Part shown: in pieces, positions 5,880 through 18,745 of the stretch | Layout: every line of letters begins with the position of its first letter | Position numbering within the stretch: the stretch's first letter is position 1 | From: a virus | DNA: 25,214 nucleotides | Direction: 5' to 3' (one strand) | Virus record (IMG/VR): IMGVR_UViG_3300046804_003958 | Coordinates: 1 to 25,214 of that record | Position numbers and translations under genes: made by a program | The notes under the pieces: generated by a model | Database searches by the model: none | What the model was told of the DNA's origin: nothing | The model's input: the letters and a program-made list of their open reading frames with translations, nothing else

Positions 5880-8033
5880 ATGGCATTAAAGACATACAAA
5901 AGAATTGGAATAAGGAGAGATAGAAACTTATCCGATGTCTCAGATCCTACCGCTTCATTGAATAATCTTTTAGATACTCTTGTTGATGATGCCAATTCAA
6001 CGTTTATTTCAGAAGACTTAAATCCTATTAGAAATATTTTTTCTAATGGGTTAACAAACGATGGATATAGGCAGATTATAGGAAGTGCAGAAGTATTCAC
6101 GGATTCTAATGGAGTTACCCAATCATTTTTTCCAAGAATTACATATCAAAATCGTTTAGATAGATTTAGATCATTCTCGGGAGAACCTAGAATTAATGGA
6201 GGTGGTGGATTAACAGCAAAATATTATGATAAAACTCAAGTTTTTGAAAATACAACAAATATTTTCTCTGGAAGCCCATTTAAAGTTGATAACTTTTGGG
6301 AAGCTGGGCAATTCACTTATAGTGGAAAAATCACTCCAGAATCATCTGACGTGAATGGTGGTGTAGAATGGGAAGGATACTTTATTCCAACAGATACAGG
6401 AGCACATACTTTTTATGTGAATGGAAGCGCACTGTTAACTGTCGATTTTCAAACTGAAGGATATGTTTCTGGTGTTGGAACATACACAGAAGTATCAAGA
6501 GTTGGTTTATCCAGTGTTTTTTCTGGTTCTGGTACTATCGACACAAACACGATTACACTAGCAAGCCCTGCAAATACAAAACATATAGGTGTTGGGCAAA
6601 GTGTCTCTGCTTCGGGTATTGTTGCTGGAACGACAGTTGATTCCTATGATAGAGATAGTGGTATTATAACACTTCTACCACCTTCTGGCACTACATATGC
6701 ACTTTCTTCAAATGTAAGTGGAAACATTACATTCTTTAAAACAATCGGACAAAGTACCCGAGTTTATTATACCACATATGTACTTGAAGCCTATCAAAAA
6801 TATAGAGTCCGATTCAGATATTATATTCCACAGTCAGTCGATGCCATTGGTGCTCAAAGAAGTATTAGTTTTATTTTATTAAGACCGGGGGCATCAGCTG
6901 CGGATTTCTTTAGATATCAATATCTTTATGATCTAAATTATGATTTCAGTGACAGTGCAAAAGGTTCTTTTCCAATCTTCTTAGATAATTCAATTAATTT
7001 TGGTGGGGGTACAATCGGAGGAACAGCAAGTTCTAATGATTATGTAAGAATTCAAACTTCTAAAAAAGTTGATGTTACCTATCAACCAAAAACATCTCTT
7101 GATGCTATTACGAAAGCAACTACAACAGGAACAACGGTTAATTCATCAAAAGTTATAACGATTTCGAATACTTCTGGAATTGAAATTGGTAATTATGTGT
7201 TTGGAAATGCAATTCCAACAAATGCACGAGTATCTCAAATTGTTATCAATACTTCTGTCATTTTAGATACAAGCGCCACTGCATCGGGAACAGAGACACT
7301 CACTTTTATTGATCATCGGGGATTTGTTAAAAGAGCAGTTGGAAGTGGAAGTGCTGGGTCGTTCACATTAAGCAGTGGCGATACAACTAATTTAAAATCT
7401 GGAATGGTAATCATTGGTTCTGGTGTTCAAGCATACACAGGAATTACAACCACAGGATCAGCGTCTGCATTCACGATATCTCCTTCACAGACTGTTGGTG
7501 CAGGTACAACTGTTTATTTTTATCAATCAAGAGGATTGATTAATAACGCACTTGATGCTTTCTGTCTTCCAGCAAATACTTCCTGTTTGATTGTTTCTTC
7601 ACTTACCTCTTCTGGATCAACTGTAATTCCTGTTACCAGCACTACAGGAATTTCAAATGGTTGGACTGTTCAAGGATTTCAATTTGATTCTGGCACTACT
7701 ATTTCATCTTTCACAGCAAATAGTATTACAATCAATAAACCAACAATTCGTAGTTTAATTTCAGGATCAAACTTCACTGTTACAAATGCAAGTGGTGATA
7801 GAACTTTATGCTGCCCACCAACAGATACTTCTCCACCATTTAGCCCTACTTTAGATGGACTAGAAACAGTTTCTGCGTCACCAAGTCTTAAAATTCATTC
7901 TGGAAACATTGTTTTTGATGCTCTCAGAGTTGGAATTGCAAATACAATTACAACCTACAGTTCCTCTGACAGATCTGCTTGTAGATTACCAATTCAAACA
8001 CCATCAGGAACTTTTAAAATTCTATGTACGTAG
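5880..8033 (+). CDS. Tail-fibre/adhesin-type protein with interrupted PA14-like domain and beta repeats, 717 aa
   Basis: This is a probable virion protein on the opposite strand to its neighbours. Residues 1-60 carry a motif (G..RDRNLSDVSDPTASLNNL) shared with the 306- and 804-aa proteins. Residues 108-193 look like the first half of a PA14 domain (GLTAKYYDKTQVF, then VEWEGYFIPTDTGAHTFYVNG), which often binds carbohydrate. The second half seems to resume near 293-345 (VYYTTYVLEAYQKYRVRFRY). Between them lies a beta module that recurs at about 412-477, 487-547 and 572-636, with the pattern ITI..TSGI..G..V.G..I...T.V. The C-terminus has Cys pairs but no known motif. It has a late-promoter box upstream and converges with the 306-aa gene, overlapping by 12 bp. 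The receptor or sugar is unknown. Confidence 0.85.
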   Translation: MALKTYKRIGIRRDRNLSDVSDPTASLNNLLDTLVDDANSTFISEDLNPIRNIFSNGLTNDGYRQIIGSAEVFTDSNGVTQSFFPRITYQNRLDRFRSFSGEPRINGGGGLTAKYYDKTQVFENTTNIFSGSPFKVDNFWEAGQFTYSGKITPESSDVNGGVEWEGYFIPTDTGAHTFYVNGSALLTVDFQTEGYVSGVGTYTEVSRVGLSSVFSGSGTIDTNTITLASPANTKHIGVGQSVSASGIVAGTTVDSYDRDSGIITLLPPSGTTYALSSNVSGNITFFKTIGQSTRVYYTTYVLEAYQKYRVRFRYYIPQSVDAIGAQRSISFILLRPGASAADFFRYQYLYDLNYDFSDSAKGSFPIFLDNSINFGGGTIGGTASSNDYVRIQTSKKVDVTYQPKTSLDAITKATTTGTTVNSSKVITISNTSGIEIGNYVFGNAIPTNARVSQIVINTSVILDTSATASGTETLTFIDHRGFVKRAVGSGSAGSFTLSSGDTTNLKSGMVIIGSGVQAYTGITTTGSASAFTISPSQTVGAGTTVYFYQSRGLINNALDAFCLPANTSCLIVSSLTSSGSTVIPVTSTTGISNGWTVQGFQFDSGTTISSFTANSITINKPTIRSLISGSNFTVTNASGDRTLCCPPTDTSPPFSPTLDGLETVSASPSLKIHSGNIVFDALRVGIANTITTYSSSDRSACRLPIQTPSGTFKILCT

Positions 8034-8942
8034 AAGCAAATAATAAGTTTCTCCGTTAACAACAACTGGAATTTTATGAGTGAATGACGTGACTAAGACT
8101 TGTGATGCAGATTCCGTACCAAATCCAGTGATTCGAATATCATTTGCAAAATAAAGTTCTCCAACGGAAACGGAACTGCTCATTGTACTTAATGCAGTTC
8201 CTACTTGAGTCCAAGGATTATTATCGCTTGAGAATGCTCGTGTGTTACCAATAAAAATTCCAGGAGATTTTGCGTTTGCAAGACCTGTTGAATCAGTGTT
8301 TAATTTAACTGGATCATTAATCACTACTGATCCTTCATACTTTAAATCATCGACACTGGTTATTGTATTTTCATTTGCTTTATATTTTCTACCAATCAAA
8401 TAATTTGCAGTGTCATTATTTGCCTGTACTGTATCAAATACTCCAATACCCGCACCACTATAAGAAAAATTTTGAGTATCTTGAATGACTGGTTGAATAA
8501 AATTAATTAAGTTTTCTTGTTGGACAGCATCTTTTCGAATAAAATAAAAGTCTGTTAAAGATACAGAACTTACATTAATTGTGTTAATTCCAACTGATGA
8601 TGTTGACGGAGTTGTTGAAAGTTTAAATTGATTCTGCCCATTAGAATTACAAACGTAATAATCTACACCAAAGAATAAAGTTGTTCCCGAACCTACAGTA
8701 ACGGTTTTGCTTACACCTACAACATCATCATTGGTGAATACAAATTGATTTGATGCTCCAAAATAGAAGAATCCTGTTGAAAGACTATTATAAGAAACAG
8801 TAGATATGTTTCTTAAATTATTTTGAATAATTCTAAGATCATTAGCAATACCAGCACCACCCAAGTTGTTAAGTGTTGTAGTATCATTTGTGTTTTCTTC
8901 TAGATTTAAATCTTTTCTAAATCCTTGATTCTGTATTGCCAT
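8022..8942 (-). CDS. Virion-associated protein with shared N-terminal motif, 306 aa
   Basis: The N-terminus GFRKDLNLEENTNDTTTLNNL (residues 7-27) matches the opening motif of the 717- and 804-aa proteins, pointing to the same docking module. Residues 48-125 contain a phage-tail type beta module with FTNDDVVGV, GTTLFFGVDYYVCNSNGQ and FKLSTTP; related YY-type modules occur in the giant protein. The second half (VVINDPVKLNTDSTGL, PGIFIGN, VSVGELYFANDIRITGFG) is strand-rich and ends in YYLLLRT. It starts one base after the 804-aa stop and has only a weak Shine-Dalgarno, so it is likely coupled. It is the last gene of the structural operon. A short fibre or adaptor role is inferred. Confidence 0.82.
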   Translation of the reverse strand: MAIQNQGFRKDLNLEENTNDTTTLNNLGGAGIANDLRIIQNNLRNISTVSYNSLSTGFFYFGASNQFVFTNDDVVGVSKTVTVGSGTTLFFGVDYYVCNSNGQNQFKLSTTPSTSSVGINTINVSSVSLTDFYFIRKDAVQQENLINFIQPVIQDTQNFSYSGAGIGVFDTVQANNDTANYLIGRKYKANENTITSVDDLKYEGSVVINDPVKLNTDSTGLANAKSPGIFIGNTRAFSSDNNPWTQVGTALSTMSSSVSVGELYFANDIRITGFGTESASQVLVTSFTHKIPVVVNGETYYLLLRT

Positions 8943-8943
8943 A

Positions 8944-11358
8944 TTATTCGTAAGTGATGGTCCAACCTCTAGATCTTAAAAATTCAATTCTATCCAAGGA
9001 TACACCACTTGGAAGAGCATTACCACGCAAATTAACCGTAACTCCACGACGATTGACGGCAGTATAATTCGTGAACAAATCAGAAATAATCGCGTTTATC
9101 GCTTGCTGAGTTAGAGTATTTCCAGAAACATCAATATATCTGATGTTATAAATTCTTGCAAATGCACCAGAAGCATAATCTGTGAATCGATTATTAAAAA
9201 GAATCAAATAGTATAATCTTGGGCATCCTGTGAAATCTGGGATTTGCCCAGAAATTAAATTATTATGAGCATAAAAATAATATAAGTTTGGAAGATTTTC
9301 AAACTTCTGTAAGGATGTGAATTGATTATTATAAAGATATAGATAGGTTAATCTTGAGAGATTCTTATATGCAGGTATTGTTCCACTAAAAGCATTGTAA
9401 CTTAAATCTGCATAGTAGATATTTCTATTTGCTGCGAAATTAGGTACACTTCCACTAAAATTATTAGATTGAAGTACAAGATAAGTTAAATTCGAACAAG
9501 CGGCAAGACTTGGGAAATTACCTGTTGTTCTACCATAGGAAACATACCAAAGATAATATAGATTTGGAGTATAAGAAAAAGCGTTTGGATGAATTGGTGT
9601 CGTTAATAAATTACTTGATTGAAGTAGGAAGTATTGAATATTTGGTGATAATTCAAATGTCTTTTCTGGAATTACATAACTGGTGTCGCCACTTATATCT
9701 CCACCAGTGAGTGATGTATATCTAAGTTCAACATAAGAAAGACTTGTATTCGTGAATTTTGGCATTGCACCAGTTAATGGTGACGAATAAAAATATAAAG
9801 TACTTAATGAACTACAACCATTAAACTTATAAACATTACTACCTGTGAAAATACTTCCAATATTTCTACAATAATGTGCATAGAATGTAGTTAAAGATGT
9901 TCTTGCACTTAAATCTGGGCAAGGTAATCCAGTACTATGAATGCTTACATATTGAATTTTTGTATTTGAAGATGATAAACTAAAACCAGCATCGGTTAGA
10001 TAATAATTTCCACCTAATTCCAATGAGATCAAGTTTGTAAGATCTTTAACATTATAAGAACTTCCGCTTGTTGTTCCAAATGCTCTAAAATCATTATTAT
10101 AAGCATTATAAGTTTCGCAGGTATTTGGTACATTAGGTAGAGTACAGTTTGAATCCGCATTATCTGGATGAAAATATGGACCACTGCTTCTTGATAGATT
10201 CAGAGTTGTAAGTGTTGTGAAACGATTACTAATTAAATTCTGTGCAATAGATCCATAAAAAGTTCCTCCAAGGGTTAAATTCTTAAGTCCTGTTGGTATC
10301 TTTGAAACAATATTTGAATTCAAACTCCTTTCTGTTGAGGTCTCACTTAGATAAAGAGGATTTTGGTTTAAAAATAGATTCTGCAAACTAGGTGTAACAA
10401 AAGTTAAGTCTGGAAAATTAGCAATACTATTACTTGCAAGATTAAAACTAGTTAAATTTTGAAACTTAACTATAGGTATATTTGAAATATTTGCAGAATT
10501 AATGGTTACAGATGAAACATTATTAGGATTATAATAAAACTGAATATATCTTTCTTTTGAAACTGCAGAACGATAACGAATTGTTGATCCTTGATTTGGA
10601 AATCTTGTGAATGAATTTGCGTTATCTGTATCTACAATTTTCCAACTTGCTGGAGTATTATTAATTAAAGATGTGAGTTGAATATTTGCATCAAGATTTC
10701 TAAAGAATCCCGTGAATACAACGGGAATACCTTTCATTGCATAAAGAGATATTGTTCTTCCATCAATGTTACACATTATTTTATGTGTAGGAAATTCCGA
10801 ATCAAATTCCTTTGCTTGAGGAACTAGGGTTGTTTGAAGTCTTGGACCTGTTACACTTGGAGATTGAGTTCCAAATTGTAGTAATCCGCCAGTAATAATT
10901 CCAACTCTTGCGCCGTAAGAGATTGGAGATGTATCTAGTACTGGAGAAGCACTTGAACTCCAAGCACTGACTCTTGATGTTGAAATATCTGCAATTTTAA
11001 CTGTAGCAGAAGGTCCTGTTCCATCAAGATAACGATAACGAATTGCATTACCACTTAATGCACCATTTAGAACAATATTTCCAAATAAAGTTCGATTTGT
11101 TCCTGCCTTTAAATCTAAAATTGAAGAGTATAATTGAGAGTCATAATAAAAGCGATCAAGAGTTTTATACAGAGGATTTGTTAATCTAGAAAGACTAATC
11201 CAATCACCTCTTGTTGCTCCTGCATTCTGAGATCCTCTGATAACATCAAGATCAAGTGGTGGAAGATTTAAGGAAACAAGTGAGGTATTTCTATCTTGAA
11301 CATCAGAGAGAAAGCTTAATACATTTAAACCAAATAACTTTGGATTAGTAATTGCCAT
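8944..11358 (-). CDS. Leucine-rich-repeat tail/adhesion protein, 804 aa
   Basis: Residues 1-60 hold the shared N-terminal motif (GLNVLSFLSDVQDRNTSL) and a baseplate-facing head. From about residue 283 to 790 the protein is a long run of leucine-rich repeats of roughly 21-24 residues with the pattern L..L.L..N..SG.IP. Clear examples are NLTYLVLQSNNFSGSVPNF, YYADLSYNAFSGTIPAY and YFYAHNNLISGQIPDF. The SG-x-(I/V)-P form is typical of plant-type LRRs. The tail (IEFLRSRGWTITYE) looks like a cap. LRRs form a curved binding surface, so a receptor-recognition role is likely. The gene is the most AT-rich of the window and starts one base after the collar gene stop, with GAGGA upstream. Confidence 0.85.
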   Translation of the reverse strand: MAITNPKLFGLNVLSFLSDVQDRNTSLVSLNLPPLDLDVIRGSQNAGATRGDWISLSRLTNPLYKTLDRFYYDSQLYSSILDLKAGTNRTLFGNIVLNGALSGNAIRYRYLDGTGPSATVKIADISTSRVSAWSSSASPVLDTSPISYGARVGIITGGLLQFGTQSPSVTGPRLQTTLVPQAKEFDSEFPTHKIMCNIDGRTISLYAMKGIPVVFTGFFRNLDANIQLTSLINNTPASWKIVDTDNANSFTRFPNQGSTIRYRSAVSKERYIQFYYNPNNVSSVTINSANISNIPIVKFQNLTSFNLASNSIANFPDLTFVTPSLQNLFLNQNPLYLSETSTERSLNSNIVSKIPTGLKNLTLGGTFYGSIAQNLISNRFTTLTTLNLSRSSGPYFHPDNADSNCTLPNVPNTCETYNAYNNDFRAFGTTSGSSYNVKDLTNLISLELGGNYYLTDAGFSLSSSNTKIQYVSIHSTGLPCPDLSARTSLTTFYAHYCRNIGSIFTGSNVYKFNGCSSLSTLYFYSSPLTGAMPKFTNTSLSYVELRYTSLTGGDISGDTSYVIPEKTFELSPNIQYFLLQSSNLLTTPIHPNAFSYTPNLYYLWYVSYGRTTGNFPSLAACSNLTYLVLQSNNFSGSVPNFAANRNIYYADLSYNAFSGTIPAYKNLSRLTYLYLYNNQFTSLQKFENLPNLYYFYAHNNLISGQIPDFTGCPRLYYLILFNNRFTDYASGAFARIYNIRYIDVSGNTLTQQAINAIISDLFTNYTAVNRRGVTVNLRGNALPSGVSLDRIEFLRSRGWTITYE

Positions 11359-11359
11359 A

Positions 11360-11872
11360 TCAGATGGTCCTCATAATAAATGCAAGCGCATAATATGGGG
11401 GTCTGTTTTCGTGGTAGTCGTCTGCACCAGTGCTCTGAGTAGAATCTGGACCAATATCATTACTGGTTGCAAGAGCATATCTACTAGATTGAGTATTAAC
11501 GTTACTATTTCCAGAATACCTAGATAATTGGTGACTGTGAGATGGCATCTCAGCAACTGTCAGTTGATGAGCAGTTTCACCACCAGTATTTCCAGGTGCA
11601 TATGCTCCACTTACAGCGCCAGTATCAGCATTAAATGTAACTCCAGTAGAGGCATCACTGGTTGCACCTACAATGAAACGACTTCTTAGGTCTGGAGTTC
11701 CACTCGAACCATTGCAAAGTGCCCATCCTGTGGGAATACTTGCAATAGAACCAGACCACATAATAATACCACCAATTGGAATCGTTCCATTTCCAACTAG
11801 CCCATCAGAATCTGTCAGTTCTTGTATCTGATTTGCAGCAGCATTAACAATTAAAGGTCTACGAGTTGCCAT
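11360..11872 (-). CDS. Short tail-collar domain protein (gp12-like tip), 170 aa
   Basis: Residues 30-75 match the phage tail-collar domain: GTIPIGGIIMWSGS, PTGWALCNGSSGTPDLRSRF and VGATSD. The C-terminus has HSHQL followed later by ENRPPYYALAFIMRTI, the usual end of collar/short-fibre proteins such as T4 gp12, in which His residues hold metal in a trimer. The head (MATRRPLIVNAAANQIQELTD) looks like a short attachment segment, so this is a compact receptor-binding tip or cap. The gap before it (24 bases) contains a late-promoter octamer; it is followed one base later by the LRR gene. A tail-fibre tip role is well supported; the receptor is unknown. Confidence 0.88.
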   Translation of the reverse strand: MATRRPLIVNAAANQIQELTDSDGLVGNGTIPIGGIIMWSGSIASIPTGWALCNGSSGTPDLRSRFIVGATSDASTGVTFNADTGAVSGAYAPGNTGGETAHQLTVAEMPSHSHQLSRYSGNSNVNTQSSRYALATSNDIGPDSTQSTGADDYHENRPPYYALAFIMRTI

Positions 11873-11890: not shown

Positions 11891-11898
11891 TATTTATT
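11891..11898 (-). promoter_or_regulatory. Putative late promoter octamer AATAAATA
   Basis: On the minus strand AATAAATA overlaps the TAA stop of the 1219-aa gene and lies 18 bases before the collar ATG. It matches the T4 late promoter TATAAATA except at the first base, and the following AAGAAAAAAC is also found after the plus-strand box at 5857. It likely gives a second late start for the collar, LRR and 306-aa genes. Confidence 0.6.
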
Positions 11899-14800
11899 AT
11901 TGTTCTTTAAAGTTAAGGCTTACCTCAGCAGTTCCACTTCCACCACCATCAATCTTTTTAGCAGTAATAAATGTTGCTTCAAGATTGTTATTATCTGGTG
12001 TGATGACTCTCTTCTCTGGACCAAATATTTTGCTCATATCAATAGTTTCAGTAGAGTTTGCACCAATATAGAGAGTATCTCTTTCAGTATATGGTCTTAA
12101 ACTTTGATCATTTTGAACATCAATAAGAGCAGATGATAATCTGGTTATTTCGTTAAAGTTAGTCGGTGAAACTCCAGTTGTGTCAGCATTTCCATCAGCA
12201 TTTGTAACTTCAATAGCATCACCAAGAATATACCACTTGGGACTAACTGTTCTTTGTAAGTCTCCAATTGTTTCTTTAACAGAAATATTGTTAATCTGAG
12301 CATAATCTCTCAGTTTTGCAACCAAATAGAGAGGATATGGATTGTAGTTATAAAGTTTTGTTGAGTTGACTGATCCTTCTGCAGTTACATTAATAGGTCT
12401 AATTAGAATGGTGAAATTAGATCCAGCACTTAAAGTTTGATCAATTTGAATATAAGAATAAGTATTTCCACTAGAGAAATAACTACTTGTTACTCCAACA
12501 AATCTTGAATTTGTTACATTCACTGTTCCACCAGTTTGCAAAATTGCAATCTGACCACCATTATAATCAATTGCTGGGAATGTTCCTTGAATTTGAACAT
12601 AAAGATTTCCATCACTTAAACCTGTTTTTGGATTCACATTATATTCATTCACATCTGGAATTTGTAATGGATCTTCAACAGTAACCGTTGCTTTTGAACA
12701 AATGCCACCAGCAGGACTTGCAAGAGATGGAATACGGTAATCAATACCCATACGAATTGATGGTTGTTGTGGAGCCCAACCCTCAGCAGTTTCTACACCA
12801 TCCTCATTTGCGGCAGTATAACTATGGGTATGCTCACCATAAAGAATATCAGAGTTTGCTAGAATTGTTGTTGTACCAACTCCAGGAATAATAAATCCGT
12901 TCAATGTATCAGGAAGTGATACATCAGGTTTTTTATCAGTAATTCCAATTAGAAAATCTGCAAAGTGTTCATAATTATCTGCAGATCTTGGATTCACGAA
13001 TTGAATTTCAAGTGTAGATCCAGTGAATCCAAAGTCTGATGCGGCATAACAATCATAGTTACTTAATCTAATTTGATGTGGATATGTTACACCAATACCA
13101 ATTGTAGTTGTAATTCCGAGAACACGATCATAAACAACGTTACTTGGAGATCCAATATTACGGTCAGTTAAAGAGAAACTAGCTAAACCACCAAATCCCT
13201 TCACAGTTGCAGTTTGAGTGTTCACATTCACACTTGTAATATAAGCATTATAAATTGATGGGGCAATAATCTTAGCACCAACATCATCCGCAGTGAAAGA
13301 ACTTACACCAACTGTTGTAATTGTATTTGGATCACTAAATTGAATATCCAAATATCTTCCACTTTCAGTTTTTGCAATTCCTGGTGTATAAACGTGACCA
13401 AATCCTGGGCAGGCAGTACAAGTTACAACCTTAACTTCTGTTAGAGAATCTGTGGAAACATTTAACTCTGTAGGAACAATAATCTTTTTATTCTGAATCG
13501 GAACTCCATCACGATTTAGAATAAAATCTTTTGGTGTAACTCCAAGAAGAGACTTAACTTTCGAAGAACTTATTGTTCTTTGCTTAGAACTTGCTGAATA
13601 GATTTGTGATGTTCCTTCATCACCACCATCAATATAATAAGAAGCACCATACTTATAAATGTATTGTGGTGTTCTTACATCTCCAGTATTTGCAATATTA
13701 AGAGCATACTTAAATCTAAAATAAGAATCTTGCAAACAAGGAGAACCTAAAGAGTTTTCAATGACTAATGTGTGAATAACTACCCATCTTGCGTCACCAT
13801 TATCTGTAGGAATATAAGCATAAAATCTCGCACCAATAGCACCATACCAACCAAATTCAATCTTATACATTGTAACTTTTTCTGGATTCAACAAATATCC
13901 AGAAGGTCCATTTGAATTTAATGGATCTCCATTGAATTTATCTCTAGGTATTTGAATGGTCCAGTATTCAGTATCATCAAATGGATCACCACTTACAATA
14001 CGTGTTTGATCTGCAATTGTCAAACCACTTCTTGCTAAAGCACTACTTTCAAGTGGAATTGTACTTCTGCGTACAATATAAAACTGTCCAGCATCAATTC
14101 TAAAAACATATTGATCTGTTGGGTTAGAAATTCCCCATTCTAGAGTAATACCAGTAACAGGTTCTGTAGAAGATCTTAAACCAAATGTAAATCCGCTGAT
14201 TCTACCAGGTTGATATCTAAAAACTCTTCTTGATTGCAGATATGCGTATCTCTGATCAGAATCAGAATATCCAGGTCTAGTTGTAGTGGAATCTACATAA
14301 TAATTCAAAAGTAAAATAATTGTAGTAAACGTAAAATTATTTCCAGTTACAGGATCAACTAGAAGACTATCTTTAATATCTCTCCAGGTGTCAGTCCAAG
14401 TATCAATCTGTCTAAATGCTGCTTCAGTTCCTGCAGCATAAACAACGTCTCCTCCAAAAATATAAGCAAAAGAAGGTGATAAGAACTTATCTTTCCAATC
14501 AGATGGATATGCAGTTCCACCTGCACCATTAAAGTAATTATAAAGATCGTTTCCTAATTGAATAAAATTTATATACTGACTAAACCGAGTATTATCATAT
14601 AATCCTAATTTTTCAAACTTTGGTCCAAAGGGAAAAGAATATGGCACAGGAAACGCAGTAATTTTAATTGCAGATTCTTGAATCTCTTCTGTTCTTGTTG
14701 CATCATAGCGATTTCCATAAATTTCATTTCCCCTATTATCCCAAGAACCAAAACTAACTCCGGAATCATATGAATAAAATTCAAATTCATCAGGATCTAG

Positions 14801-15556
14801 TCCATAGGATGAAACGTTTGAAAATAAAGCTAATTGAACTTCTAAGCGATTGACACCAAGTAATGTTGTACTAACTTCACTTTGTTCTTTAAATTGCTCT
14901 TCAATCTTCCAAACGATATCAGACTTTCTTGTTGCCTCTGTTGCCCTTTTAATTAAGACTTGAGCAGATTGAACTTGAGATGATGATATATTATTAGATA
15001 AGAATGCCGTGTATGTATTACCAAGACCAACGATTCTCGAAATAAAAGTACCATCAGGAATGTCAGGACCATCAATTTGATCACCAACTCTAATATCTAA
15101 ATTTGAAATTGAATCATCAAAATAGATTTTATTTCCTTGTAGAGTGACTCTATCAACAACTCTGACTTCTAGATATGGATATTCTGCAAGAGTAACGGCA
15201 CCACTTGATACTGTTGAAACAGTGGTTCCAAATCCTACTGTTGATCCGCTTGTTACACCAACACCTGTAGAAACATCAACATCTAAATCACCATAAACTG
15301 CCGTTGCAATACCAACTTGTTGAAATTGAAGTCTAGTATATGCTGCATCACGATCATTAAAAACAACAGAAGTTGATCTTTTTTTGCTTGCATCTAGAGT
15401 ATAATAAGTATCAACTTCAGTAATGAGAGTATTACCAAATTCATCAGTTAAAAGTTCACCATTTGATATATTATATAAGTCTTGTTGATTACTGGGGACG
15501 ATTGATATTCTGCGTTTATCGTCCCCTATTTTTATATCCTTTCCACCTCCGGACAT
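11897..15556 (-). CDS. Large virion structural protein, 1219 aa, paralogue of the upstream 1061-aa protein
   Basis: A long strand-rich structural protein with no signal or membrane segment. It shares three blocks in the same order with its neighbour: QSEV..LLG..R.EV.L near 222, FRYQPGRISGFTFGLRSS near 443, and VTMYKIEFGWYGAIGA near 557 followed by KYGASYYIDGGDEG near 640. Upstream of them lie about 220 unique residues with beta modules (SGVGVTSGSTVGFG, VGDQIDGPDIPDGTFIS). The C-terminal third is strand-rich and ends with a MSKIFGPEKRVITPDNNN stretch. Such WYGA-containing proteins are, as I recall, tandem structural genes in T4-like cyanophages; baseplate or tail-fibre assembly is the likely site. 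A strong Shine-Dalgarno (GGGAGGAG) precedes the ATG, three bases after the previous stop. Confidence 0.85.
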   Translation of the reverse strand: MSGGGKDIKIGDDKRRISIVPSNQQDLYNISNGELLTDEFGNTLITEVDTYYTLDASKKRSTSVVFNDRDAAYTRLQFQQVGIATAVYGDLDVDVSTGVGVTSGSTVGFGTTVSTVSSGAVTLAEYPYLEVRVVDRVTLQGNKIYFDDSISNLDIRVGDQIDGPDIPDGTFISRIVGLGNTYTAFLSNNISSSQVQSAQVLIKRATEATRKSDIVWKIEEQFKEQSEVSTTLLGVNRLEVQLALFSNVSSYGLDPDEFEFYSYDSGVSFGSWDNRGNEIYGNRYDATRTEEIQESAIKITAFPVPYSFPFGPKFEKLGLYDNTRFSQYINFIQLGNDLYNYFNGAGGTAYPSDWKDKFLSPSFAYIFGGDVVYAAGTEAAFRQIDTWTDTWRDIKDSLLVDPVTGNNFTFTTIILLLNYYVDSTTTRPGYSDSDQRYAYLQSRRVFRYQPGRISGFTFGLRSSTEPVTGITLEWGISNPTDQYVFRIDAGQFYIVRRSTIPLESSALARSGLTIADQTRIVSGDPFDDTEYWTIQIPRDKFNGDPLNSNGPSGYLLNPEKVTMYKIEFGWYGAIGARFYAYIPTDNGDARWVVIHTLVIENSLGSPCLQDSYFRFKYALNIANTGDVRTPQYIYKYGASYYIDGGDEGTSQIYSASSKQRTISSSKVKSLLGVTPKDFILNRDGVPIQNKKIIVPTELNVSTDSLTEVKVVTCTACPGFGHVYTPGIAKTESGRYLDIQFSDPNTITTVGVSSFTADDVGAKIIAPSIYNAYITSVNVNTQTATVKGFGGLASFSLTDRNIGSPSNVVYDRVLGITTTIGIGVTYPHQIRLSNYDCYAASDFGFTGSTLEIQFVNPRSADNYEHFADFLIGITDKKPDVSLPDTLNGFIIPGVGTTTILANSDILYGEHTHSYTAANEDGVETAEGWAPQQPSIRMGIDYRIPSLASPAGGICSKATVTVEDPLQIPDVNEYNVNPKTGLSDGNLYVQIQGTFPAIDYNGGQIAILQTGGTVNVTNSRFVGVTSSYFSSGNTYSYIQIDQTLSAGSNFTILIRPINVTAEGSVNSTKLYNYNPYPLYLVAKLRDYAQINNISVKETIGDLQRTVSPKWYILGDAIEVTNADGNADTTGVSPTNFNEITRLSSALIDVQNDQSLRPYTERDTLYIGANSTETIDMSKIFGPEKRVITPDNNNLEATFITAKKIDGGGSGTAEVSLNFKEQ

Positions 15557-15559
15557 AGA

Positions 15560-18500
15560 TCACTGCTCCTCCCAGGTGATGCTTGCAGATATATCTGCAT
15601 ATGCTGCTCCGCTATTATATATTGATTGTGTTGAAGCGCATAGATATAAACTATCTACTTTGTTTGTAAGTGGGAAAGAAAGATATTCCTTATTATAATC
15701 AAAGTATGGTGATAAATCATACTGTGCTCCAGAAGCAGGTACGAAAATACTTGAAACTACAGTTCCAGTTCCAGGAATTGGGCTTCTGACTTGAGGATTA
15801 ACCTTAATTGAAGATAATTGTGCAAGAGTAAATTCAGTTGTAATACCAGAAACTCCATTTCCAGTTGGATCACTATTCTCTTCTTTCAGGAAGTTATTGG
15901 TAGTGGTTAGAATAATATTATCTGAAGATGAATTTAAGGCGTAGAAATAATAACCACTGACTGTTCCTCTGTTTTCAAGATATCCAAGAACTGAAATTGG
16001 TTTTTGAGTTACATCATTTTGATAGTATCCTCTGAAATAACCATATACACCAGTGTTATCTGAAAGATAACTTGAATTGCTAACTCCGACTTGAGTTGGA
16101 TTGCCAGTCTTTCCAATATTTGTATTGGATGAAAGTGCAAGTGTTCCAGTTGTTGAAGCAGTTGTTTGGAAAATAGGAGTTTTCAGAAGGTCTAGTTTAA
16201 GAACTCCAGTGGAACCAGAAGAGAGGCGTGTTGGATAAACCTGAGTTCTGTTCCTTACATTCCTTCCAGTGCTACTTTGAATATAATCTCTACACTTTAA
16301 TCCAATCAAAGGTGTAAGACGATTTGGAATAATCGTAATCGTAGATAATGAAGTTGAATTTAATGGAGCGTTTAGATAAAGTCTTCTATTTGATATATCT
16401 ACAAAGTTAACTTTAATGTTTTGATCTAGGACATTTGAAGTAATAACTTGAGATCCAACATAGAAAGATGTGGAAAGACCAGAAGATGTTCCAGCAGTGA
16501 TATATGGATCACTTGAACTGGTTGCATTTGTAAGTACAACCTCAGTGACTCCAGCACCTACAGTGTATAATCTCTTTGAACCATAGACACTTAAAGTTGA
16601 TGGCGTGGAGTAACTAAACAGTTTAACAGTTCCTCTGTCTCCACCATCAATGTAGTAAGAAGCGCCATACTTAACAATGTGCTCAGATGCAGAACCATAA
16701 GAGAATGTTGATGCAAGTCTCTTCGTGTTTGTATAACCGAATCTATTTGCACCTCCACCACCATAAACAAGATAGGTAATTGGTAGAGTTGCATTTCCAA
16801 GAGATGAAACCTTAAGTTGGTTTGATGCTCTTAAATGATGAACCCTTACCCATCTTGCTTCACCATTACTGACAGGAACATAAGCAAGGAATAGAGCACC
16901 AACAGCACCATACCAAGAGAATTCAATCTTATACATTGTGACCTTAGTAAGATCAATATCCCAGATGCTGGTATCAGTCAGCAATTCCCCAGTATCTGGA
17001 TCAGTAACATTTTGACCTGCTCTCTTGTCACTTACAGCATCACTATAAAGTAGATCTTCAGTTTCACCATCTAGTCTATCTCCGCTAAATCTAGATCTTG
17101 GAATACGATATTCATAAACGTTCCAATAATCTTTTTTAACGTTTTGATTCACCCACTTATCATAATAAGTATTAACAGCATCAATTTGATCTTTCAGAGT
17201 TGATGTATCTGAAGCCCCTAGAGTTGTATCAACATATCCTTCATTATTTCCATCACCATCTTCATACATATAGGGGAACATTCCCGTTGGTTTAACGGTT
17301 GTGTATTTTGTTCTCGATGCATTAATTAGAGCACCGCTTGTAGGTTGTACAAAAGGAACTGGAGTAATTATGACGTGAGAAGAAATACCAGTAACGTTTG
17401 TAATACCAGTTACAGAACTTCCATCAAGATTATTAAGTGTAAGTGTTCCTCTACCCGTTGAACTGTTCACAGAAACAGATGCAAGTCTGTAAATCTTAGT
17501 ATCTGTGAGTCCAGTAATGACTCCAACGTTCGTTCCTTTGGAATAGGATACATATTGCCCAGTAGAAAGACCAACTGCCATTCCACCAGATTGATAATAA
17601 GTTGGAACAGTTGAAATACCAATGTTAACAGTAAATGAAGTGCTTGAATTAACTTGAAGAACGTTATAACCAAAAGTTCTGTTTGGATAATATTTTGGAG
17701 TAACTGGATCAAGATAACAAGTCATTCCAATACCACTTAAGGTAATAAACTTACCTTCTTCAAATCCGTGAGCTACAGAAGTGGTAATGACCATTAATCC
17801 AGTACTAATGTCATATGTGGCATTAGTAATGGTTTTTCCAAGTCCAGCAATTGAAATCGTATTTCCACCAGTAACTGATGTAATACCAACCTGAGACTCA
17901 CTTTGAAGTAAAGATGGATCATAAACTGCTGCGTGAGTCATCAGCAGATTATCTCTTAAAATTACAAGATCACCGAATTTCTTAGGTGTTGCAACAGGGT
18001 TTTGAAGTGCCGTTGCATTAGATTGCGACTCAGATCCTCTTGCAGATAATGGATCTAGAGGGTTTGTTCTTCCATAATCTTGAGTTTGTTGTCCAGCAGC
18101 AGTACCAAAAGTTAGTGGATTTTCATAAATGATAGACTGTGTTCTTCTAACGACACAGAAGTTATCTCCAGTTCCATCATTTCTAGATTCCCAGTAATAT
18201 CCATCATAATTATCAAAAATTCCATACTTACGAACTGCAGGGTTTTGTACTGATGCACCATCATCGCTGATGAGTGAGGTTTTAACACCAAATGTTGCAG
18301 CAGATACACGACCTGGTTGGTATCTAAAGAATCTTTTTGATGTTAAAATTGCAGTTCTATCTGCAGGTCCTTCGATCAATGCTCCAGATTCTTCAGGAAC
18401 GTGAGTCAGACCCCAACCCATTGTTTGTCCAATACCAGCATAAACACCAGTATTTGAAACTGTAGAGTATTGTTCAGGTGATGGTGACCATTCCGTTGGG

Positions 18501-18745
18501 TTCACATCATAGGTGTTAACGTCAGCAAAGATACCAAGAGCAACTTCGGAACGGGGAATACCAAGAAGAGAAAGAGCAACTTCAGACTGAACTTTATTCT
18601 GTTCAGCAACTGGAATTGTTGATTGATCACTTGCAATTACAACAGGAATAGATTTTTCAGACGTTTGCTGCCCAGGAGGTACAGGAGCAGTTCTACCTAC
18701 AACGACAACTGCTGCATTATTATTAACGTTTGTGTTATCTGGCAT
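15560..18745 (-). CDS. Large virion structural protein, 1061 aa, paralogue of the 1219-aa protein
   Basis: A strand-rich structural protein. The head (MPDNTNVNNNAAVVVVGRTA) leads into the shared blocks: QSEVALSLLGIPRSEVALG near 51, FRYQPGRVSAATFGVKTS near 143, VTMYKIEFSWYGAVGALFLA near 600 and KYGASYYIDGGDRG near 690. A VITTSVAHGFEEG module near 330 belongs to the same repeat type as in the giant protein upstream. The C-terminal third has alternating strands and turns and ends SASITWEEQ. It starts one base after the giant-gene stop, with GGAG ten bases before the ATG. The mix of a common core with unique ends suggests duplication followed by divergence within the operon. Confidence 0.85.
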   Translation of the reverse strand: MPDNTNVNNNAAVVVVGRTAPVPPGQQTSEKSIPVVIASDQSTIPVAEQNKVQSEVALSLLGIPRSEVALGIFADVNTYDVNPTEWSPSPEQYSTVSNTGVYAGIGQTMGWGLTHVPEESGALIEGPADRTAILTSKRFFRYQPGRVSAATFGVKTSLISDDGASVQNPAVRKYGIFDNYDGYYWESRNDGTGDNFCVVRRTQSIIYENPLTFGTAAGQQTQDYGRTNPLDPLSARGSESQSNATALQNPVATPKKFGDLVILRDNLLMTHAAVYDPSLLQSESQVGITSVTGGNTISIAGLGKTITNATYDISTGLMVITTSVAHGFEEGKFITLSGIGMTCYLDPVTPKYYPNRTFGYNVLQVNSSTSFTVNIGISTVPTYYQSGGMAVGLSTGQYVSYSKGTNVGVITGLTDTKIYRLASVSVNSSTGRGTLTLNNLDGSSVTGITNVTGISSHVIITPVPFVQPTSGALINASRTKYTTVKPTGMFPYMYEDGDGNNEGYVDTTLGASDTSTLKDQIDAVNTYYDKWVNQNVKKDYWNVYEYRIPRSRFSGDRLDGETEDLLYSDAVSDKRAGQNVTDPDTGELLTDTSIWDIDLTKVTMYKIEFSWYGAVGALFLAYVPVSNGEARWVRVHHLRASNQLKVSSLGNATLPITYLVYGGGGANRFGYTNTKRLASTFSYGSASEHIVKYGASYYIDGGDRGTVKLFSYSTPSTLSVYGSKRLYTVGAGVTEVVLTNATSSSDPYITAGTSSGLSTSFYVGSQVITSNVLDQNIKVNFVDISNRRLYLNAPLNSTSLSTITIIPNRLTPLIGLKCRDYIQSSTGRNVRNRTQVYPTRLSSGSTGVLKLDLLKTPIFQTTASTTGTLALSSNTNIGKTGNPTQVGVSNSSYLSDNTGVYGYFRGYYQNDVTQKPISVLGYLENRGTVSGYYFYALNSSSDNIILTTTNNFLKEENSDPTGNGVSGITTEFTLAQLSSIKVNPQVRSPIPGTGTVVSSIFVPASGAQYDLSPYFDYNKEYLSFPLTNKVDSLYLCASTQSIYNSGAAYADISASITWEEQ

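Follow-up and report, generated by a model that had tools for sequence, protein, structure and literature searches.

A fixed set of three cyanophage virion proteins with a common N-terminal head and separate bodies

A 25.2-kb virus record (25,214 nucleotides, analysed over its full length and referred to here as the window) contains three neighbouring genes whose protein products begin alike and continue differently. The question raised by this locus is whether its proteins are interchangeable parts, as a sequence-only reading had proposed (a common head attached to one place on the virion and joined to swapped bodies, making a modular host-range locus), or components that are inherited together. 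We assigned the window to an uncultured relative of the T4-like cyanophages on the strength of its phrog_1645 virion proteins and its S-SKS1-like helicase, and because a Gp23 capsid gene is present (by Pfam) in a close, 236-kb relative; unlike that relative, S-TIM5 contains no Pfam match to Gp23.

The list of open reading frames places the gene for a 717-aa PA14-type protein at positions 5880-8033 (plus strand), that for a 306-aa protein at 8022-8942 (minus strand) and that for an 804-aa LRR protein at 8944-11358 (minus strand), in agreement with the sequence-only reading. The 306-aa and 717-aa genes are convergent and overlap by 12 bp (positions 8022-8033). An overlap of the same length is conserved at the related loci L004, L007, L012, L013 and L023; it measures 4 bp in S-TIM5, and the genes do not overlap in S-TIM54 and L024.

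Head profiles, built from orthologues over the first 90-100 residues of each protein, were compared with profiles covering the whole length of the other two. In every such comparison the best alignment ran from N-terminus to N-terminus. The LRR head matched the PA14-type protein with an E-value of 8.4e-7 (probability 92%) and the 306-type head matched the same protein at 5.4e-5 (67%); the comparison between LRR and 306-type heads was weaker (E 0.003-0.013, probability 3-11%), and runner-up alignments gave E-values of 0.15-0.6. The related block noticed at the start of all three proteins is therefore real and above chance. It is also N-terminal in relatives, beginning no more than 35 residues after the preceding stop codon in 312 of 317 head-bearing ORFs and no more than 48 residues after it in the remaining five.

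The head spans approximately 45-70 residues, exceeding the motif originally picked out. As delimited by the head profiles, it comprises residues 1-70 of the 717-aa protein (5880..6089, plus strand; GIRRDRNLSDVSDPTASLNNL...SEDLNPIRNI), residues 1-48 of the 306-aa protein (8799..8942, minus strand; GFRKDLNLEENTNDTTTLNNLGGAGIANDLRII) and residues 1-60 of the 804-aa protein (11179..11358, minus strand; FGLNVLSFLSDVQDRNTSLVSLNLPPLDLDVIRGSQNAG). When 69 heads (23 genomes) were aligned, all three head types shared an invariant G, an NLSD motif and an ALxNL motif, and a second block (DLxxIRG) was found mainly in the LRR and PA14 heads. Identity between head families is only ∼17-25%, and the head has no significant match in Pfam or PHROGs.

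The bodies that follow these heads differ between the three genes, as had been claimed. That of the 804-aa protein (8944..11178, minus strand) contains LRRs in its C-terminal half (Pfam LRR_4, E 7e-16, above the curated cut-off), which are found in all 23 of its 23 orthologues. The body of the 717-aa protein (6090..8033, plus strand) is predicted to form a PA14/flocculin-like fold plus further beta modules: its structural model was matched by Foldseek to yeast Epa/Flo adhesins and a Marinomonas PA14 domain (E ∼1e-5 to 5e-4, probability 1.0), and a Pfam PA14 domain is present in 21 of 24 orthologues (best E 6.4e-6), the match in the window protein itself being weak (E 0.077, below cut-off). The predicted fold is like that of the yeast Epa/Flo proteins and of Marinomonas primoryensis PA14, but identity to PA14 adhesins is 9-16%, and inspected aligned segments of the PA14-type body contained no conserved pair corresponding to the Asp-Asp calcium motif of flocculin-type lectins. 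The body of the 306-aa protein (8022..8798, minus strand; its orthologue is S-TIM5 gp117) was modelled with one confident beta domain (residues ∼45-139), for which we found no significant fold match and no recognised family or known relative. All heads were modelled at low confidence (as single chains), with short helices at residues 23-33, 44-55 and 60-66 in the model of the PA14 head.

A search of cyanophage genomes, which the sequence-only reading had suggested, found the head confined to this locus, in three genes per genome. A combined head model recovered exactly three genes in each of the complete genomes of S-TIM5, S-TIM54, S-TIM61 and S-TIM66. The 236-kb relative yielded three head genes and a fourth partial match, its LRR head being split by a frameshift; in this contig (L005, L031) the LRR, 306-type and other nearby genes are frameshifted, possibly through sequencing errors. 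The same model detected no head in nine T4-like cyanophages (S-SKS1, S-PM2, syn9, P-SSM2, S-CRM01, S-SRM01, DSL-LC02, SynMITS9220M01 and S-SM1) or in the siphovirus isolates S-CBS4 and Cr-LKS4, from which the trio is absent despite a pair of upstream paralogues described below, and no head on other ORFs within the relative loci collected at that stage. A tblastn search with the three proteins against 50,697 phage records gave real support to Aurunvirus alone, all other matches being weak or attributable to chance.

Within Aurunvirus, gp118, gp117 and gp116 of S-TIM5 and their homologues in S-TIM54, S-TIM61 and S-TIM66 correspond to the window trio in genes, order, orientation and heads, and are annotated as virion structural proteins. 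In S-TIM5 they follow gp120 and gp119, which match the 1061- and 1219-aa proteins of the window. As these are its nearest true relatives, we regard the window trio as a member of the unnamed S-TIM5 gp118/gp117/gp116 family. The S-TIM5 bodies are longer than those of the window (1193, 644 and 1392 aa) and share only 22-24% identity with them. The head family, previously unnamed as well, identifies a set of three genes that is conserved both in Aurunvirus and in uncultured T4-like cyanophages; the recognition of this trio family, of its shared head and of its fixed composition is new here.

We collected 121 distinct head-bearing ORFs from isolates and from IMG/VR scans (conducted with separate head alignments and with whole proteins), and classified them using body models from which the head had been removed. 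Head class and body class agreed in all 120 assignable ORFs (the remaining one is truncated), and none of those 120 paired a head with a foreign body, bearing in mind that the scans seek short conserved peptides that are then confirmed by tblastn, so that a strongly diverged head on a new body could escape. The gene order (LRR+, 306+, PA14-) was identical in 91 of 91 loci holding three heads, these loci being overlapping and drawn from fewer contigs. Pairwise distances of head and body within a gene were correlated at 0.88-0.93, and body distances between genes at 0.967-0.978. In a head tree (based on few columns, its finer forks unsure) the three gene classes were separated by the minimum of two changes, with heads clustering by gene and not by genome. 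Together, the class test, the distance correlations and the head tree weigh against body swapping.

Heads from the same genome were not significantly more alike than heads from different genomes (p 0.06-0.72), and for want of such an excess we rejected the idea that the three heads are homogenised, or co-evolve, within genomes.

Given that heads cluster by gene, that head and body distances agree and that no swaps were seen, we conclude that the three heads had split earlier than the common ancestor of the sampled phages, and that the trio has been inherited as a unit since then. The occurrence of the same three proteins, together and unswapped, in every relative found makes them look like an adhesion set of three fixed parts and not like a swappable host-range cassette. 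The bodies are thus different from gene to gene, as the sequence-only reading held, and are not exchanged between genomes, as it had supposed. Relatives of the 306-aa protein with long insertions after the head (ORFs of ∼400-700 aa) occur at L037, L039, L041, L043, L044, L046, L048 and L050, so that body length behind this head is variable and body identity is not.

The proposed role of the locus in host range fared no better. The trio has diverged about as fast as neighbouring genes, and its proteins are 98.3-99.7% identical between S-TIM5 (isolated on Synechococcus strain WH8102) and S-TIM61/66 (isolated on strain CC9605), a near-identity that is suggestive rather than final, since isolation host does not equal full host range. 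A gp126-type fibre (L002:755-6115, L057:576-5828, L058:436-5691) is only 19-45% identical between S-TIM5 and S-TIM61/66 over residues ∼200-600 and otherwise near-identical. This variable segment is a candidate host-range segment, and the fibre a better host-range candidate than the trio in the Aurunvirus lineage.

The layout of the locus does have a published counterpart. In the branched tailspike complex of Ackermannviridae, several clustered receptor-binding proteins carry conserved N-terminal assembly modules (the XD and TD domains), and their C-terminal bodies are exchanged from phage to phage (PMC11414711). In contrast, no body replacement was seen in the trio, and the sequence of its head is different from those of XD and TD. 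A shared head with different bodies in one genome tempts one to infer exchangeable host-range parts; comparison of genomes says the opposite.

The core of the head resembles the NLSDLxNxxxARxNL repeats of the solved short tail fibre gp92 (PDB 9zd7). In a profile comparison these repeats matched the PA14, LRR and combined heads with E-values of 1e-4 to 1.5e-5, above all 150 column shuffles, and matched the 306-type head weakly (E 0.0036, with two of 150 shuffles as high); as the comparison was picked after a database search, we treat the match as a lead. The motif is internal and repeated in gp92, whereas in the trio it occurs once, at the N-terminus, mostly accompanied by the second block. Mean pairwise identity in the head and body of the three proteins is 0.56 versus 0.43, 0.50 versus 0.40 and 0.57 versus 0.47, placing the head on average above the body in conservation, yet the head does not in every case rank first when each protein is divided into eighths. 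Judging from its likeness to the fibre repeat, its N-terminal place, its higher-than-average conservation and the annotation of orthologues as structural proteins, the head most likely serves as a virion-side oligomeric anchor, perhaps a trimeric one, or as a trimerisation element. Attachment to the virion through the head, as first envisaged, is plausible. The baseplate family of T4 gp9/gp10 (Pfam PF07880) has no match in the 236-kb relative, and in S-TIM5 scores 16 bits, under the cut-off of 25, at a different locus.

The reading that we favour, with moderate confidence, is that the locus encodes a fixed, co-inherited trio of virion proteins in which ancient specialised heads carry their own bodies and the head most probably acts as a virion-facing oligomeric anchor. 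On this account, the trio, which lies beside the large structural genes in a T4-like cyanophage, would have arisen when the head was triplicated and its copies then specialised. Each member would combine one of three ancient head copies (∼45-70 residues) with its own body (LRR, PA14 lectin-like or small beta); the heads would form a virion-facing, oligomeric and perhaps trimeric anchor, from which the bodies would reach outwards and contact the cell surface or each other. We base this on the homology of the heads, their presence three per genome and nowhere else, the complete agreement of head and body classes and the single gene order, and further on the correlated distances, gene-wise clustering and conservation of the heads, the virion annotation, the fibre-repeat match, the PA14 fold and the LRRs. 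Counted against it are the low-confidence head models, heads that do not always rank first in conservation, a fibre match chosen after the search and weak for the 306-type head, the lack of a conserved Asp-Asp motif in the PA14-type body, and the fact that a similar layout in published tailspike clusters does go with swapping (PMC11414711). A bolder form of the same idea, which we offer tentatively, is that a single distal complex has quasi-equivalent sockets for the three specialised paralogous heads, so bringing together three chemically different recognition modules (LRR, PA14-type and small beta protein). Instead of swappable fibres, Aurunvirus and the uncultured T4-like cyanophages would then have an obligate hetero-adhesin machine that is passed on as a unit.

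The likeness of the head core to the gp92 repeats in 9zd7 would also suit a rather unlikely alternative, in which the head is no more than a generic motif for the folding or trimerisation of fibres (one NLSDL-type repeat), taken up separately by three unrelated virion proteins without any need for a common site. That alternative also agrees with the lack of excess head likeness within genomes, an excess that a shared, fast-evolving partner might produce; however, the head is a single N-terminal copy restricted to the trio, the LRR and PA14 heads extend past the repeat into the DLxxIRG block, and a generic motif would be expected on other fibres of these genomes, where none was found. It is quite improbable that the head is a gene-duplication relic, devoid of present common function, with each protein attaching in its own way: the heads diverged anciently, cluster by gene and have low cross-family identity, as a relic might, but every genome keeps each of them, conservation is on average higher in the head than in the body, and all three families retain the same set of residues (G, N, L, D). 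Least probable of all is a modular host-range locus, in which a common head fits one virion socket and phages change host by exchanging bodies. This reading would account for one locus with a shared N-terminal head and three different bodies and has its precedent in the Ackermannviridae tailspike clusters (PMC11414711), but is already largely contradicted by the distance correlations and the head/body class test, and is opposed by the constant gene order, the neighbour-like divergence and the near-identity of the trio in phages isolated on two hosts.

Upstream of the trio lie two paralogous virion proteins of 1219 and 1061 aa (11897..18745, minus strand) that lack the head and that are likewise upstream in S-TIM5 (gp119 and gp120); the pair is a candidate platform for the trio. 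Relatives of the pair (L067, L068) are found in Synechococcus phage S-CBS4 and in Cylindrospermopsis phages, again as adjacent virion genes. A 170-aa collar-type gene (positions 11360-11872) separates the LRR gene from that for the 1219-aa protein; it is present in L004, L005 and L007-L010 and missing from L012, L013 and L024. At L054 and L055 the trio is very divergent, and adjacent proteins start with a different common N-terminus (INIGRIANDGTGDDLREAF).
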